From an uncultured Acidobacteriota bacterium (GTDB lineage: Bacteria; Acidobacteriota; Terriglobia; Bryobacterales; Bryobacteraceae), in NCBI GenBank assembly GCA_902826605.1, contig CADEFM010000008.1:62001-126000 (forward strand): a stretch of DNA of 64,000 nucleotides, written 5' to 3'. A program made the translations under genes and the position numbers. Below the pieces are notes generated by a model, which was given only the letters and a program-made list of their open reading frames with translations, was not told the DNA's origin and did no database searches. Below, one piece after another: positions 2,032-43,789 of this stretch (within the stretch, counting starts at the first letter, position 1; every line of letters starts with the position of its first letter).

Positions 2032-2697
2032 ATGATCGGCATGAACCTCCATCGTTTCCACGGCGCTCACCGATTAGCACTGATTGCTTTCATCCCAGCT
2101 GTGCTCTGCGCCGGCGAGCATGTTTCCGTAGGCGTCAAAGGTGGCGTACCCATCACTGATTTCGTCGACGCCGCAAGGGGCACGACGTCCGCATACTTCA
2201 CTTCGACTCACCGATACTTGGTAGGTCCCACCGTGGAGTTTCATCTTCCGGCGCGATTCTCAATCGAAGTGGATGCCCTTTATAAGCGCGTCGGCTATCA
2301 GTTCGAGGCGAATGGGCCCGTCATCTTTTCGAAAACGGTCGCTAATTCATGGGAATTTCCGGTATTGGGCAAGTTCGAAATACTTCCTGGACCCGTTCGC
2401 CCATTCATCGACGCCGGTGCGAACTTCCGTCACCTGAGCGGTGTCAAGCAAATTCAGCAGACGATCTCCGGCGCGACATTCAACCAAGTGGAAGTGAATG
2501 GCGCCACCGAGTTCAACAAGGACTACGATATCGGCTTCACCTTTGGATTTGGCGTTGCGTTCAAACTCGGGCCCGTGCGTATTTCTCCTGAAGTCCGCTA
2601 TACCCGCTGGGGCGGCGAGAATTTCCGCGATCCTATCGAATCGCTGCTGCGAACGAACCGCAATCAGGGTGATTTCATGCTGGGTCTCACATTCTGA
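2032..2697 (+). CDS. Outer-membrane beta-barrel protein (porin family)
   Basis: 221 residues: a signal peptide ending near LCAGEH, then alternating amphipathic strands such as VGPTVEFHLPARFSIEVDAL and WEFPVLGKFEILPGPVRPFI, ending in phenylalanine (GDFMLGLTF) as is usual for proteins inserted by the BAM complex. It is a clear paralogue of the barrel at 49481-50050: shared elements are the GLKFG/GVKGG start, EFPVLGK, PEVRY/PEIRY and the RNQ end. Probable role is an eight-stranded outer-membrane barrel of unknown function. An in-frame ATG at 2041 is an alternative start. No obvious terminator follows. Confidence 0.75.
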   Translation: MIGMNLHRFHGAHRLALIAFIPAVLCAGEHVSVGVKGGVPITDFVDAARGTTSAYFTSTHRYLVGPTVEFHLPARFSIEVDALYKRVGYQFEANGPVIFSKTVANSWEFPVLGKFEILPGPVRPFIDAGANFRHLSGVKQIQQTISGATFNQVEVNGATEFNKDYDIGFTFGFGVAFKLGPVRISPEVRYTRWGGENFRDPIESLLRTNRNQGDFMLGLTF

Positions 2698-2864
2698 TCT
2701 CGATTATTCCCTGATAATAGACGCGTGCGAAATGGAGGCGGCGCAGATCGCCCCAGTGCACGCGATCAATCGGGAATCGCCCGGGGGCGAGGCGGAGGTC
2801 GGCACCCCGGGCGCTGCGCGGATGCAGTTGGTCCCGCTGATATACAATAGGGCAGGAACTCTCT

Positions 2865-4061
2865 ATGTCCTATCAAAGCGGCCGACAACTCGTCCAACTA
2901 CCAGGTCCTACCAATGTCCCTGAGCGCGTTCTACGCGCGCTTTCCCGTCCTACCATTGATCATCGGGGGCCGGAGTTCGCGCTTCTGGGTCTGGAGGTTC
3001 TGGAGGGACTGAAGGAGGTGTTCCAAACCTCCGGCAAGGTCGTCGTCTTTCCGTCGTCCGGCTCGGGCGCGTGGGAAGCCGCGCTCACCAACACGCTGTC
3101 CCCGGGCGATAAGATCCTGATGTTTGAGATCGGGCAATTCTCGGCGCTATGGATCGAGATGGCGGGCAAGTTGGGATTAGACGTCGACGTCGTGCAAAGC
3201 GATTGGCGTCACGGTGTCGATCCGCTGGTCGTCGAAGCCAAACTCCGTGAGGATCGTGAACACAAGTTCAAGGCAGTATGCGTAGTGCACAATGAGACGT
3301 CCTCGGGCGTGACCAGCGCGGTCGCACCTGTTCGCGAAGCCATCAATCGCGCCAACCATCCCGCGTTGCTCCTGGTAGACGCCATTTCTTCGCTCGCATC
3401 CATCGACTTCAGGCACGATGAATGGGGCGTGGACGTCACCATCAGCGGCTCTCAAAAAGGACTGATGCTTCCGCCGGGACTGGGATTCAACGCGATCAGT
3501 GAGAAGGCGCTGGCTGCCTCGAAAACCGCACGCCTCCCGCGATCCTACTGGGAATGGCAGCCGATGCTAACGCAGAATGCGAGCGGCCTTTTTCCATATA
3601 CCCCCGCCACGAATTTATTGTACGGGCTAAAGGAATCGCTGCAAATGCTGCGGGAAGAAGGCTTGCAGAACGTGTTCGCGCGGCATCAGCGGCATGGTGA
3701 GGCAACTCGCCGCGCCGTGCAAGCTTGGAATTTGGAAAACGTCGCTCTCAATCCCAAAGAATATAGCAACTCGGTAACGGCGATCTATGTGCCAGCAGGC
3801 CAATCGGCCGATGCGTTTCGCAAGGTAGTGTTGGATCGATTCAACATGCCCCTTGGCACAGGACTGGGAAAATTGCAAAACAAGGTATTCCGCATTGGGC
3901 ATCTGGGCGACTTCAACGATCTGATGCTAGCCGGAACGTTGAGTGGCGTGGAAATGGGCCTGGAAATCGCCGGCATCCCGCACCGCAAGGGTGGCATCAC
4001 GGCGGCACTCGACTACCTGACGGCTTCATTTAAAGAAGCACAGTCGATGGCGCATGTTTGA
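2865..4061 (+). CDS. sgaA: Serine--glyoxylate aminotransferase-like class V aminotransferase
   Basis: 398 residues, a full-length class V PLP-dependent aminotransferase. The N-terminal PGPTNVPERVL and the substrate-loop region SSGSGAWEAAL fit the alanine/serine-glyoxylate aminotransferase branch. The PLP-binding lysine is K198 in SGSQKGLMLPPGL, and the cofactor aspartate lies in LVDAISSLAS near residue 172. The reaction expected is glyoxylate plus serine giving glycine plus hydroxypyruvate, in cytosolic C1/photorespiratory-type metabolism. No serine-cycle genes are adjacent, so alanine- or aspartate-glyoxylate activity remains possible. Confidence 0.88.
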   Translation: MSYQSGRQLVQLPGPTNVPERVLRALSRPTIDHRGPEFALLGLEVLEGLKEVFQTSGKVVVFPSSGSGAWEAALTNTLSPGDKILMFEIGQFSALWIEMAGKLGLDVDVVQSDWRHGVDPLVVEAKLREDREHKFKAVCVVHNETSSGVTSAVAPVREAINRANHPALLLVDAISSLASIDFRHDEWGVDVTISGSQKGLMLPPGLGFNAISEKALAASKTARLPRSYWEWQPMLTQNASGLFPYTPATNLLYGLKESLQMLREEGLQNVFARHQRHGEATRRAVQAWNLENVALNPKEYSNSVTAIYVPAGQSADAFRKVVLDRFNMPLGTGLGKLQNKVFRIGHLGDFNDLMLAGTLSGVEMGLEIAGIPHRKGGITAALDYLTASFKEAQSMAHV

Positions 4062-4160
4062 GAGCGATTTCTGAAAACAGCCGCCCTGACCCGTGACTAG
4101 TAATTCTCTTGCTGCCTCCTAGAGAATCATCCTCGCATCGGCGAAAGGAATTCCATTCGT

Positions 4161-4691
4161 ATGGCCACGTATCAGATCGATCCCGCGCACTCCGCAGCGC
4201 AGTTTAAGGTGCGTCACATGATGATTGCGAACGTAAAGGGTGAATTCCACAAAGTTAGCGGGACCGTAAATTTCGATTTCGCGAACCCAAGCGCCGCCAC
4301 CGTGGAAGCATCCATTGATGTCTCCACTATTTCCACCCGTGAAACGGATCGCGACAACCACTTGAAGAGCCCGGATTTTCTGGATGTCGCCCGGTATCCA
4401 AACATTACCTTCAAATCGAAGACAGTGACTCCCAAGGGCGAGAGCAGTTTCAGCGTGATCGGGGATCTAACTATTCGAGATAAGACCCGCGAAGTGACCT
4501 TGGACGTGGAAGAACTCACGGGCGAGGCCAAGGACCCTTGGGGGAATATCCGGCGTGGCGCCACGGCGAAGACGACCATTAACCGAAAGGATTTCGGAAT
4601 GGAGTTCAACGTTGTGCTGGAGACAGGCGGTTTCCTGGTAGGCGATACGGTGGAATTGACACTGGATGTCGAAATGATCCGGCAGGCTTAG
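4161..4691 (+). CDS. YceI family lipocalin-like protein, apparently cytoplasmic
   Basis: 176 residues starting directly with TYQIDPAHSAAQFKVRHMM, the typical first strand of the YceI domain, and running through FLDVARYPNITF, TIRDKTREVTLDV and FGMEFN to the C-terminal strand. YceI proteins form a beta-barrel that binds long isoprenoid or amphipathic molecules. Many members are periplasmic; this one has no signal peptide, so it should stay in the cytosol unless the start is misplaced. A GCGAAAGGAA stretch upstream may serve as ribosome binding site. It is convergent with the gene at 4701. Confidence 0.88.
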   Translation: MATYQIDPAHSAAQFKVRHMMIANVKGEFHKVSGTVNFDFANPSAATVEASIDVSTISTRETDRDNHLKSPDFLDVARYPNITFKSKTVTPKGESSFSVIGDLTIRDKTREVTLDVEELTGEAKDPWGNIRRGATAKTTINRKDFGMEFNVVLETGGFLVGDTVELTLDVEMIRQA

Positions 4692-41474: not shown

Positions 41475-41984
41475 ATGGCCAACCCTATTTCGGACGTGTT
41501 CAACGGCGCGGCGGCGATCGCCAAGGGCATGGGTATCACCTTTAAGGAGATGCTAAACCCGACGATTACCGAGGACTATCCGGATGCGCCCGCCAAGTTC
41601 CAGGAACGCTTTCGCGGAGTGCACGAGTTGCAGCGCGACGATAATGGCCTGGAAAAGTGCGTAGCATGTTTCTTGTGCGCGGCCGCCTGCCCCGCCCAGT
41701 GCATCTATATCGAAGCCGCCGAAAACACCACCGAGCTTCGCATCAGCGGCGGCGAGCGTTACGCCAAAGTTTATAACATCGACTATAACCGCTGCATCTT
41801 TTGCGGATATTGCGTGGAGGCTTGTCCTACCGACGCCATCACGCACGGACACGGTTTCGAAATCGCCAGCTACAACACGTCAACCCTGATCTATCGGAAG
41901 GAACAAATGCTGGTGCCCATACCGGCCGGCGCACAGTTTCCGATGAAGGCCGCCGAGACGGAACACACAGAGAGCGGTCACTAG
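41475..41984 (+). CDS. nuoI: NADH-quinone oxidoreductase subunit I, stand-alone
   Basis: 169 residues with two 4Fe-4S motifs: KCVACFLCAAACPAQCIYIE and RCIFCGYCVEACPTDAITHG. The pattern YNIDYNRCIFCGYC is diagnostic for NuoI of complex I, which passes electrons between NuoG and NuoB on the membrane face. The other nuo genes are not in this window, so the gene is separated from the main operon or is a second copy. Its N-terminus has the GITFKEMLNPTITEDYP segment usual for the family. Confidence 0.9.
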   Translation: MANPISDVFNGAAAIAKGMGITFKEMLNPTITEDYPDAPAKFQERFRGVHELQRDDNGLEKCVACFLCAAACPAQCIYIEAAENTTELRISGGERYAKVYNIDYNRCIFCGYCVEACPTDAITHGHGFEIASYNTSTLIYRKEQMLVPIPAGAQFPMKAAETEHTESGH

Positions 41985-41997
41985 TCTCAGGGATCCG

Positions 41998-43125
41998 CTA
42001 AGGGACGGCGGAGACGGACACAACTGTATCAGCGCGCAGAAGCCGGAAGCGTAACATCCACTCTTGCGGCGCCCCTGCCGGTCGCCCGTTGGCCGCGAAT
42101 TTCCATTCTCTCGCTGCGTTCAATACCCGATTCGTTAAATATTTGCTGGCGACGGGGGGCGCGGGCGCGGCACTCGTCACATTGCCTTCGCTATCCACAC
42201 GAATCCGTACATTGATCACAACGGTTCCTTGGATGGTGTTTCGGGCCCGCGGCGGAATATCGGGCAATACCCGGCGAATGACCTCAGGCGTCGCTCCGGT
42301 AGCTGAAGGCGGCGCGGCCGCCCGCGCGGGGGGGGACGGTGCTTCAGGGTTGCGGGTCACTACAGGCGCGACGGACGGTTTCTCAGTGGGTCTCTGCTTC
42401 CACAGAGCTACCAAGACTAGCGATAACACTAAAGCACTGGCGATCACGACGAGTGACGGCGATTTAGAGGCAGGCGCCGGTTTGTTTCCGGACTTGAGGT
42501 GCGTTACGATCTTCGCCGCAGTCCAACGTGCGCGAGGCGATGCGAGGCATCCCTCGGCTATTTCTCGAAACGGCTCGGCAAGCGGCTGGGGTAACGCCTC
42601 TTGCACAAGCATGCCCACGGCGAAACAATCGTCGTTCTGATCGCCGCCTTCCACCGCTCGATCTAGTGGCAGCTTCACAAGGTCCCCAACCGCCATAATC
42701 GCGGATGGCTTCAGTCCGCCTAGGGCAAACCCCCGGCCGTGCAGATACTCGAGCGCACTAGCCACTGGAACCAGCATTTCCAAAGCTTCCTGGGACGTGA
42801 GCGTCCGTTCTCGCAACAGCAGAGATAAATCGTCATCGGCCAATTCCATCACCACATAGTGGACAGTCACGCTGGGCAGCTCTGATTCGCCACCAGCGAA
42901 TATCTTGAGTAAATGGCGGTGTGTCAATGCGGACGACGCCTTCCAACGCGCCAGAGCGTCAGGGTCCATTCGAGCCGGAGTCAATTTGATCGCCGCGCGC
43001 GCACCAGAGTACTTGGTTTCAAACACAGCGCTACTGTTCGCGTGGAGCAGACGAATGAGCGGAAATTGGCCGTCGATTATGTGGCCTTCGAACTGTTCCC
43101 AATCCACCTGGGGGGAGCCGCTCAC
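41998..43125 (-). CDS. Pseudokinase fused to a TonB C-terminal domain
   Basis: 375 residues. Residues 10-210 have a serine/threonine-kinase fold: K47 in ARAAIKLTPA, VVMELADDDLSLLLRE (hinge), SALEYLHGRGFALGGLKPSA (catalytic-loop region). The HRD aspartate is replaced (ALGGLKP) and no DFG motif is found (KLPLDRA instead), so catalysis is unlikely. One membrane helix (SLVVIASALVLSLVLVAL, about 224-241), a Pro/Ala linker, and a TonB C-terminal domain (QGTVVINVRIRVDSEGNVTS, VLNAAREWKF) follow. This would join a cytosolic binding module to a periplasmic TonB domain. No ExbB/ExbD is nearby. Confidence 0.8.
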   Translation of the reverse strand: MSGSPQVDWEQFEGHIIDGQFPLIRLLHANSSAVFETKYSGARAAIKLTPARMDPDALARWKASSALTHRHLLKIFAGGESELPSVTVHYVVMELADDDLSLLLRERTLTSQEALEMLVPVASALEYLHGRGFALGGLKPSAIMAVGDLVKLPLDRAVEGGDQNDDCFAVGMLVQEALPQPLAEPFREIAEGCLASPRARWTAAKIVTHLKSGNKPAPASKSPSLVVIASALVLSLVLVALWKQRPTEKPSVAPVVTRNPEAPSPPARAAAPPSATGATPEVIRRVLPDIPPRARNTIQGTVVINVRIRVDSEGNVTSAAPAPPVASKYLTNRVLNAAREWKFAANGRPAGAPQEWMLRFRLLRADTVVSVSAVP

Positions 43126-43255: not shown

Positions 43256-43789
43256 ATGCACCAGAATCGCTTTGCGATCGTTCTCACGCTGGCTCTCCTG
43301 GCCAGCGCTTTTTCACTTTACGCCGCCGAGCTGCCGCAGACCGGTCAGCAGGCTCCCGGCTTTACCCTTCCCTCGCAGGATGGGTCCAAAGTCAGCCTGA
43401 AGGATTTCGCGGGTAAGTGGGTGGTTCTGTATTTCTACCCGAAAGATAAGACCCCGGGCTGTACGATTGAAGCGCACAACTTCCAGGTCGCCCAGGAGGA
43501 ATACAACAAGAAGAATGCGGTGATCGTGGGCGTCAGCGTGGATTCGGCCGACAGCCACAAGGAATTCTGCGCCGAACAGAATCTGACGTTTAAGCTTCTG
43601 TCCGATACAGATAAGAAAGTGGTGAACCTTTACGGCTCCACCCGGCAAATGGGCACGGATACCGTCGCCGCCCGTAACACATTTTTGGTGGACCCCAAGG
43701 GCAAGATCACCAAGGTGTGGACCCAGGTGAACCCCAACAAGCACAGCGATGAAGTGCTCGCCGAGTTGAACGTCGTAGCTAAAAAGTAA
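43256..43789 (+). CDS. Exported peroxiredoxin of the BCP/PrxQ type
   Basis: 177 residues with a signal peptide (FAIVLTLALLASAFSLYA) and AAGGAG before the ATG. The thioredoxin-fold core has the peroxidatic Cys in YPKDKTPGCTIEAHNFQ. The second Cys five residues later, usual in BCP, is absent (EAHN), but another occurs in HKEFCAEQNL and could resolve the disulfide. The signal peptide places it in the periplasm. It reduces peroxides with thiol donors, and DsbD-dependent thioredoxins may supply electrons there. It ends at a bidirectional terminator. Confidence 0.88.
   Translation: MHQNRFAIVLTLALLASAFSLYAAELPQTGQQAPGFTLPSQDGSKVSLKDFAGKWVVLYFYPKDKTPGCTIEAHNFQVAQEEYNKKNAVIVGVSVDSADSHKEFCAEQNLTFKLLSDTDKKVVNLYGSTRQMGTDTVAARNTFLVDPKGKITKVWTQVNPNKHSDEVLAELNVVAKK

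Follow-up and report, generated by a model that had tools for sequence, protein, structure and literature searches.

A transmembrane pseudokinase family with TonB_C- or SPOR-type C-terminal domains in one class of Acidobacteriota

The locus and the layout of its protein

The window analysed here, a stretch of 64,000 nucleotides from an uncultured member of the Bryobacteraceae (Acidobacteriota; assembly GCA_902826605.1, contig CADEFM010000008.1), carries on its reverse strand an open reading frame of 375 amino acids with a GTG start (41998-43125, -). The gene stands alone between two forward-strand genes, namely a ferredoxin-type 4Fe-4S gene (41475-41984, +), which we take to encode NADH dehydrogenase subunit I and whose 3' end faces it, and a peroxiredoxin-type gene (43256-43789, +), which starts away from it. 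The features of the gene are the following:

41998..43125, minus strand: whole gene, transmembrane pseudokinase with TonB_C domain (375 aa; open reading frame and relatives)
42496..43080, minus strand: kinase-like domain, residues ~16-210 (Pfam, phmmer, profile, alignment)
42985..42987, minus strand: Lys47, the beta3 (VAIK) Lys, kept (alignment)
42700..42723, minus strand: catalytic-loop region, residues 135-142, LGGLKPSA replacing HRDxKPxN (alignment)
42658..42666, minus strand: residues 154-156, LDR replacing DFG (alignment)
42400..42456, minus strand: predicted membrane helix, residues 224-242, without His (hydropathy)
42286..42399, minus strand: Pro/Ala-rich linker, residues 243-280 (sequence)
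42001..42285, minus strand: TonB_C-type domain, residues 281-375 (TIGR01352 match over 291-355, profiles)

Residues 224-242 form the single strongly hydrophobic segment of the protein (mean hydropathy 2.65). The first-pass annotation had described a kinase fold without the catalytic Asp and the DFG motif, joined by a helix to a TonB domain, and this anatomy is borne out by profiles, alignment and hydropathy. The one close relative in a scan of named genomes belongs to Candidatus Sulfopaludibacter sp. SbA3 (locus L031), placed by NCBI in Acidobacteriota, Terriglobia, Bryobacterales. Compared with this nearest relative over 312 codons, the window gene is under purifying selection (dN 0.28 vs dS 1.73; dN/dS ~0.16). 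As far as sequence can tell, the layout is beyond chance, as many genomes hold relatives of the same layout and dN lies far below dS. An AlphaFold2 model from a two-row alignment (window protein and L031) reached a whole-protein mean pLDDT of only 38.8, and the folds assigned here therefore rest on sequence profiles.

A kinase-like domain that has lost its catalytic residues

The window protein on its own matches Pfam Pkinase below the cut-off (E 1e-4; 22.2 bits against 31.7), and in phmmer searches it matches M. tuberculosis PknA at 3e-7 and PknB at 1.3e-6 to 1.6e-5. With a profile built from 30 relatives, matches to PknA and PknB chains span the kinase domain, the best at 1.6e-30, and on this profile match to PknA the domain is assigned a Hanks-type kinase fold, that of a pseudokinase. 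Aligned with ordinary kinases, its HRD region reads L-G-G (135-137) and its DFG region L-D-R (154-156), so that Gly137 and Leu154 occupy the HRD Asp and DFG Asp sites. Degeneration has gone further in the window member than in most relatives: it also lacks the catalytic-loop Asn (Ala142) and, in the alignment, the APE segment, and its activation segment is shortened.

The alignment comprised 113 distinct family proteins from retrieved loci, a subset of all matches, together with three ordinary kinases; L014 was left out because the gene of L087, of which it is a fragment, was included. No family protein (0/113) has the DFG Asp, and two (L110 and L111) have the HRD Asp, both without the DFG Asp; this argues against an active Hanks-type kinase. 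The earlier pseudokinase call is thus correct and holds for the whole family. No single residue substitutes for the catalytic Asp (His 52, Arg 29, Ala 10, Gly 7, others; n=113), the catalytic-loop Asn is present in 88/113, and all 113 show a gap at the alphaC Glu in the alignment used. Conservation is otherwise considerable, with 26 columns upstream of the helix kept in at least 95 of the 113 proteins and the Asp166 column conserved in 112. The first-pass annotation had also proposed a survey of the fusion in acidobacteria, including active-kinase versions; the family turned out to be class-wide, and no active version was found among the 113 proteins or among 11 further members with readable motifs, which also lack both Asp residues. 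As a control, HRD or HGD plus DFG are kept in 10/10 strong kinase matches from the window's own genome. With the losses family-wide and the genome's own kinases intact, the alignment identifies catalytic-residue loss as a trait of the whole family rather than the decay of one gene.

What replaces the lost motifs is itself patterned. Across the family the DFG region mostly reads S-D followed by C, G or T, and the HRD region in most members reads H followed by G, E or S. The DFG Phe position holds an acid in 106/113 (Asp in 100, Glu in 6), and Asp155 of the window protein is this conserved acid, while the beta3 Lys site holds a base in 102/113 (Lys in 68, Arg in 34). Both base and acid occur in 101 proteins, neither in 6, the acid only in 5 and the base only in 1. 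The association has a Fisher p of 1.2e-6 when relatedness is ignored; on the tree, it comes down to 5 independent pairs, of which about 3 agree and 0 disagree, and is not significant. In DYD pseudokinases a pairing between beta3 and an acid has been proposed from AlphaFold3 models (PMC12599244), and together with the co-occurrence seen here this suggests a salt bridge between the beta3 Lys/Arg and the shifted acid in the family.

Occurrence of the family

Family members are present in four family-level groups of the class. A single-protein search of genomes from the window's own taxonomic family gave matches in 44/150 at E 1e-10, while the 30-relative profile matched 117 of 299 genomes of the class at E 1e-30, or 109 after discounting 8 genomes by score alone, whose best match (1e-30 to 1e-32) was at the level of ordinary kinases. 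In a sample of the phylum (n=297; E 1e-42), 23/33 genomes of the class were positive, vs 0/264 of other classes, among the matches listed. One family-level group (f10, presumably Acidobacteriaceae) has 62/120 genomes positive at E 1e-42, each of the 62 with one copy, and since only these are positive the gene is not essential there. Some genomes of another group (f6) hold up to three copies, and one of them also holds a broken fourth.

Several members show variant forms. A broken copy (L158:1283-2046) is a pseudokinase gene split over two frames. Members of f6 with other C-termini (L149:1812-2630 and 2684-4534, L150, L152, L154, L156) are either soluble proteins of 272 aa or carry a Cys-containing block, a hydrophobic stretch and further residues, and all lack both catalytic Asp residues. 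In an 845-aa member (L157:604-3141, -), kinase and helix are separated by a Pro-rich stretch that is repetitive and unusually long. Titles and abstract openings in the literature gave no account of such a protein, a scope outside which most subscription papers and preprints lay. This is a real, conserved pseudokinase family, undescribed as far as the literature was searched.

The membrane helix and two alternative C-terminal domains

Lys and Arg are more numerous before the helix than after it in 75/111 proteins and fewer in 11/111, as for a cytosolic N-terminus; the kinase part would accordingly be cytosolic and the small domain periplasmic. Helix counts and trees exclude L018 and L031, which are cut by contig ends. 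In the window protein the TonB domain scores 27.6 bits with TIGR01352, just over the cut-off of 27.1, and 17.2 bits with PF03544, under that of 24.6. At the level of sequence profiles the domain is a TonB_C homologue, since a profile built from the C-termini of 16 family members hits a solved TonB C-terminal domain at 1.4e-7.

This domain is not the only one found after the helix. By family-built profiles, the C-termini of the 113 proteins are of TonB_C type in 62 and of SPOR type in 50, with one truncated; Pfam at E 0.05 assigns TonB_C to 15 of 30 relatives and SPOR to 11 (best SPOR 8.1e-6). The SPOR label comes from Pfam and home-made profiles and is weak against solved structures in the PDB (best E 0.025). 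Profile comparison found no homology between the family's TonB_C and SPOR domains (probability 1 percent), so that exchange is preferred over slow change of one into the other, a route that the unrelated profiles disfavour. An unrooted quick tree of the kinase part (111 proteins) needs 2 domain changes vs ~36.6 when labels are shuffled. Rooted on three ordinary kinases (112 rows; L022 and L141 also excluded), the tree needs 3 changes when all labels are counted, and TonB_C lies closer to the root; the long root branch of this tree and quick construction, without bootstrap, give no firm direction of exchange. Read from these trees, the periplasmic domain has undergone one or few old exchanges, after which both forms persisted.

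Binding of denuded glycan by the SPOR domain of RlpA involves a Gln on strand 1 and an Arg cluster (PMC6895207). In the SPOR relatives there is no Gln at the expected place (50/50) and no Arg at two strand positions (50/50), the positions having been matched to RlpA Q270, R309 and R311 by inference rather than by structure alignment. This weakens a simple peptidoglycan-binding reading.

Evidence for and against a link to the Ton machinery

Receptor contact by TonB is made through a PxYP motif before the TonB domain. A Tyr or Phe at this position was found in 0/61 TonB_C members, where position P+2 is V, I, A or P in 61/61, and, by eye, in 7/12 other TonB_C proteins of the window's own genome. 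The motor side gives a similar picture. TolA and TonB use an SHLS motif of their helix to bind their motors (PMC12204202), and the 19-residue helix core holds a His in 0/61 TonB_C members and in 7/50 SPOR members; a loose S/H pattern in the core plus flanks occurs in 2/61 TonB_C members. As a control, judged by eye, 5/7 TonB-like proteins of the own genome with an N-terminal helix have the His. The two that lack it include a TonB_C protein encoded near two exbD genes (L033), which weakens the His test. L033 (contig C10, with L045 and L047) carries a Gln at the place where the His of the motor helix would be looked for. Linkage of the window gene to exbD was not found, the four ExbD genes lying on contigs C10 and C11 and the gene on C8.

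TonB_C proteins without the usual TonB layout occur in the same genome (L036, L037, L039, L040, L043), and several of them have a signal-peptide-like N-terminus. Because small, exported-looking proteins (L036, L037, L040) carry it, TonB_C seems to have roles in the window's own genome other than with the Ton motor.

A neighbourhood survey covered 40 loci with home-made gene calls over 0.77 Mb and found no steady gene partner beside the family gene, so gene context gives no pathway. The most widely shared neighbour clusters, with 8 genes in 7/40 loci each, are LuxR-type response regulators and TonB-receptor-like outer-membrane proteins, and the positions of both are scattered across loci. The 8 receptor-like genes lie within ~10 kb of the family gene, against ~2.4 expected in 0.77 Mb at the density of the own genome (14 such genes in 4.49 Mb), although other genomes may hold more. 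Two of them directly adjoin the family gene on the opposite strand (L060, 10193-14149; L082, 5350-9204), both beside TonB_C members. Three of the seven loci hold SPOR members (L049, L070, L086), with strands and places scattered, and the window's own 20-kb locus has no gene of this cluster.

Of the earlier interpretation, then, the pseudokinase stands, and the proposed role in Ton energy transfer and receptor contact finds no support: the TonB_C members lack the helix His and the PxYP Tyr/Phe (0/61 each), the window gene is not near exbD, and 50/113 members carry SPOR. The lack of His in L033 and the receptor-like genes in 7/40 loci soften this negative. The sequence features argue that the family protein is probably not a Ton transducer.

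Likeness to known systems

PASTA kinases (PknB, StkP) are active and have the order kinase, helix and outer domain, the last made of PASTA repeats. The family shares this order, and PknA and PknB are the best sequence match of its kinase part, but it has no active kinase and carries TonB_C or SPOR instead of PASTA. Its TonB_C domain is homologous to the C-terminal domain of TonB energy transducers, from which the family differs in lacking the motor-helix His and the PxYP Tyr, in its large pre-helix domain and mid-protein helix, and in having no exbD nearby. Likewise, 50/113 relatives resemble the SPOR proteins FtsN and RlpA in having a SPOR-type domain after helix and linker; unlike these, they have changed glycan-binding Gln/Arg positions and are fused to a pseudokinase.

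MviN, a large membrane protein of peptidoglycan synthesis not known to carry TonB_C or SPOR, contains the nearest understood pseudokinase. In M. tuberculosis, this pseudokinase recruits FhaA and restrains wall synthesis, acting in cell-wall control as a platform for recruitment (PMC12599244). The ActPs3/MviN group resembles the family in having lost all catalytic motifs, in an activation-loop deletion and often in a helix after the kinase domain; unlike the acidobacterial family it is annotated mainly in actinobacteria, and MviN reads VALT at beta3 vs Lys/Arg in 102/113 family proteins (PMC12599244). DYD pseudokinases, from Actinobacteria and Firmicutes, also lack the alphaC Glu, keep the catalytic-loop Asn, have an acid near the DFG site and, as in part of the family, a beta3 Arg (PMC12599244). 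The family places its acid at the Phe position and has lost the DFG Asp in 113/113. The window protein cannot be identified with the DYD group, since it reads LDR, and most of the family S-D plus C, G or T, where the DYD motif would stand. It is not a GLW pseudokinase either, as GLW there replaces HRD and the beta3 Lys is missing (PMC12599244), whereas the window protein has LGG and keeps Lys47.

Interpretation and rival explanations

Drawing on the sequence anatomy, the family-wide catalytic loss, the conserved replacement motif, the few old domain exchanges and purifying selection, we infer a catalytically dead, single-pass membrane receptor or scaffold that would couple an envelope-side ligand to cytosolic partners (probability about 0.54); its task would probably be envelope sensing or scaffolding and not, as for a TonB, nutrient uptake. 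The dead PknB-like domain would be a cytosolic binding platform under selection, its shape held by a rewired core of the beta3 Lys/Arg and an Asp one place past the lost DFG Asp. Outside, the TonB_C- or SPOR-type domain, depending on lineage, would bind an envelope partner, which could be a strand of a protein or material of the cell wall. Inside, the pseudokinase may recruit or regulate a partner in the cytosol, perhaps an ordinary kinase of the same genome, in a manner close to that of the mycobacterial MviN pseudokinase. The putative link to the cell wall is the weakest step, given that the SPOR relatives lack the glycan-binding Gln/Arg and that the gene has no steady neighbour.

Among the alternatives, a purely structural tether from the inner membrane to the wall or outer membrane, with the kinase part only anchoring or dimerising, would suit the Pro-rich linker, the two alternative periplasmic domains and the variable catalytic-loop residues; it is made unlikely by the 26 pre-helix columns kept in at least 95/113 proteins and by the existence of soluble, pseudokinase-only members. 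A Ton-type energy transducer, in which ExbB/ExbD would drive the TonB_C domain on outer-membrane receptors and the pseudokinase would set the timing, could draw on the real TonB_C homology, the four ExbD genes of the genome and the receptor-like genes in 7/40 loci, adjoining in two, vs ~2.4 genes expected at own-genome density. The missing helix-core His and PxYP Tyr (each 0/61 TonB_C members), the helix in mid-protein, the distance from exbD, the replacement of TonB_C by SPOR in 50/113 members and the receptor-like loci themselves, three of the seven being those of SPOR members with scattered places and strands, make such a transducer improbable.

Similarly improbable is an enzyme whose rearranged active site would bind metal through the shifted Asp and carry out, for instance, adenylyl transfer or an unusual phosphotransfer. 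Conservation of the beta3 Lys/Arg, the shifted acid and the catalytic-loop Asn (88/113) speaks for it, as do the cases of POMK and of pseudokinases that are rewired in a related way and for which ATP binding is known or has been modelled (PMC12599244); against it, the catalytic Asp has no single substitute, its place being taken mainly by His or Arg (52 and 29 of 113) and less often by Ala (10) or Gly (7), and the window member also lacks the Asn (Ala142) and the APE segment. That member is more degenerate than most relatives, as a decaying former kinase gene without function would be, but its open frame, its presence through the class and above all a dN/dS of ~0.16 to the nearest relative largely refute decay, to which we give very little weight. 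A bolder version of the receptor reading, which we hold only tentatively, sees class-wide receptor pseudokinases in which a nucleotide-binding, inactive kinase with a paired beta3 base and shifted Asp would report the envelope state, with SPOR and TonB_C as interchangeable outside sensors. The pseudokinase domain may bind a nucleotide, and if the two outer domains are interchangeable in this way, TonB_C would act as a module that binds ligands independently of the Ton motor.

Significance

Bacterial pseudokinases are little studied. A review names seven families, and its main text contains none of the words TonB, SPOR or Acidobacteri- (PMC12599244); the acidobacterial family would be a further one. 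It would be marked by its own DFG replacement, the natural exchange of its outside domain and its conservation through an acidobacterial class. Two questions become testable with it, one on the role of a TonB_C domain that is not tied to the Ton motor, the other on how signals cross the inner membrane by way of a dead kinase.
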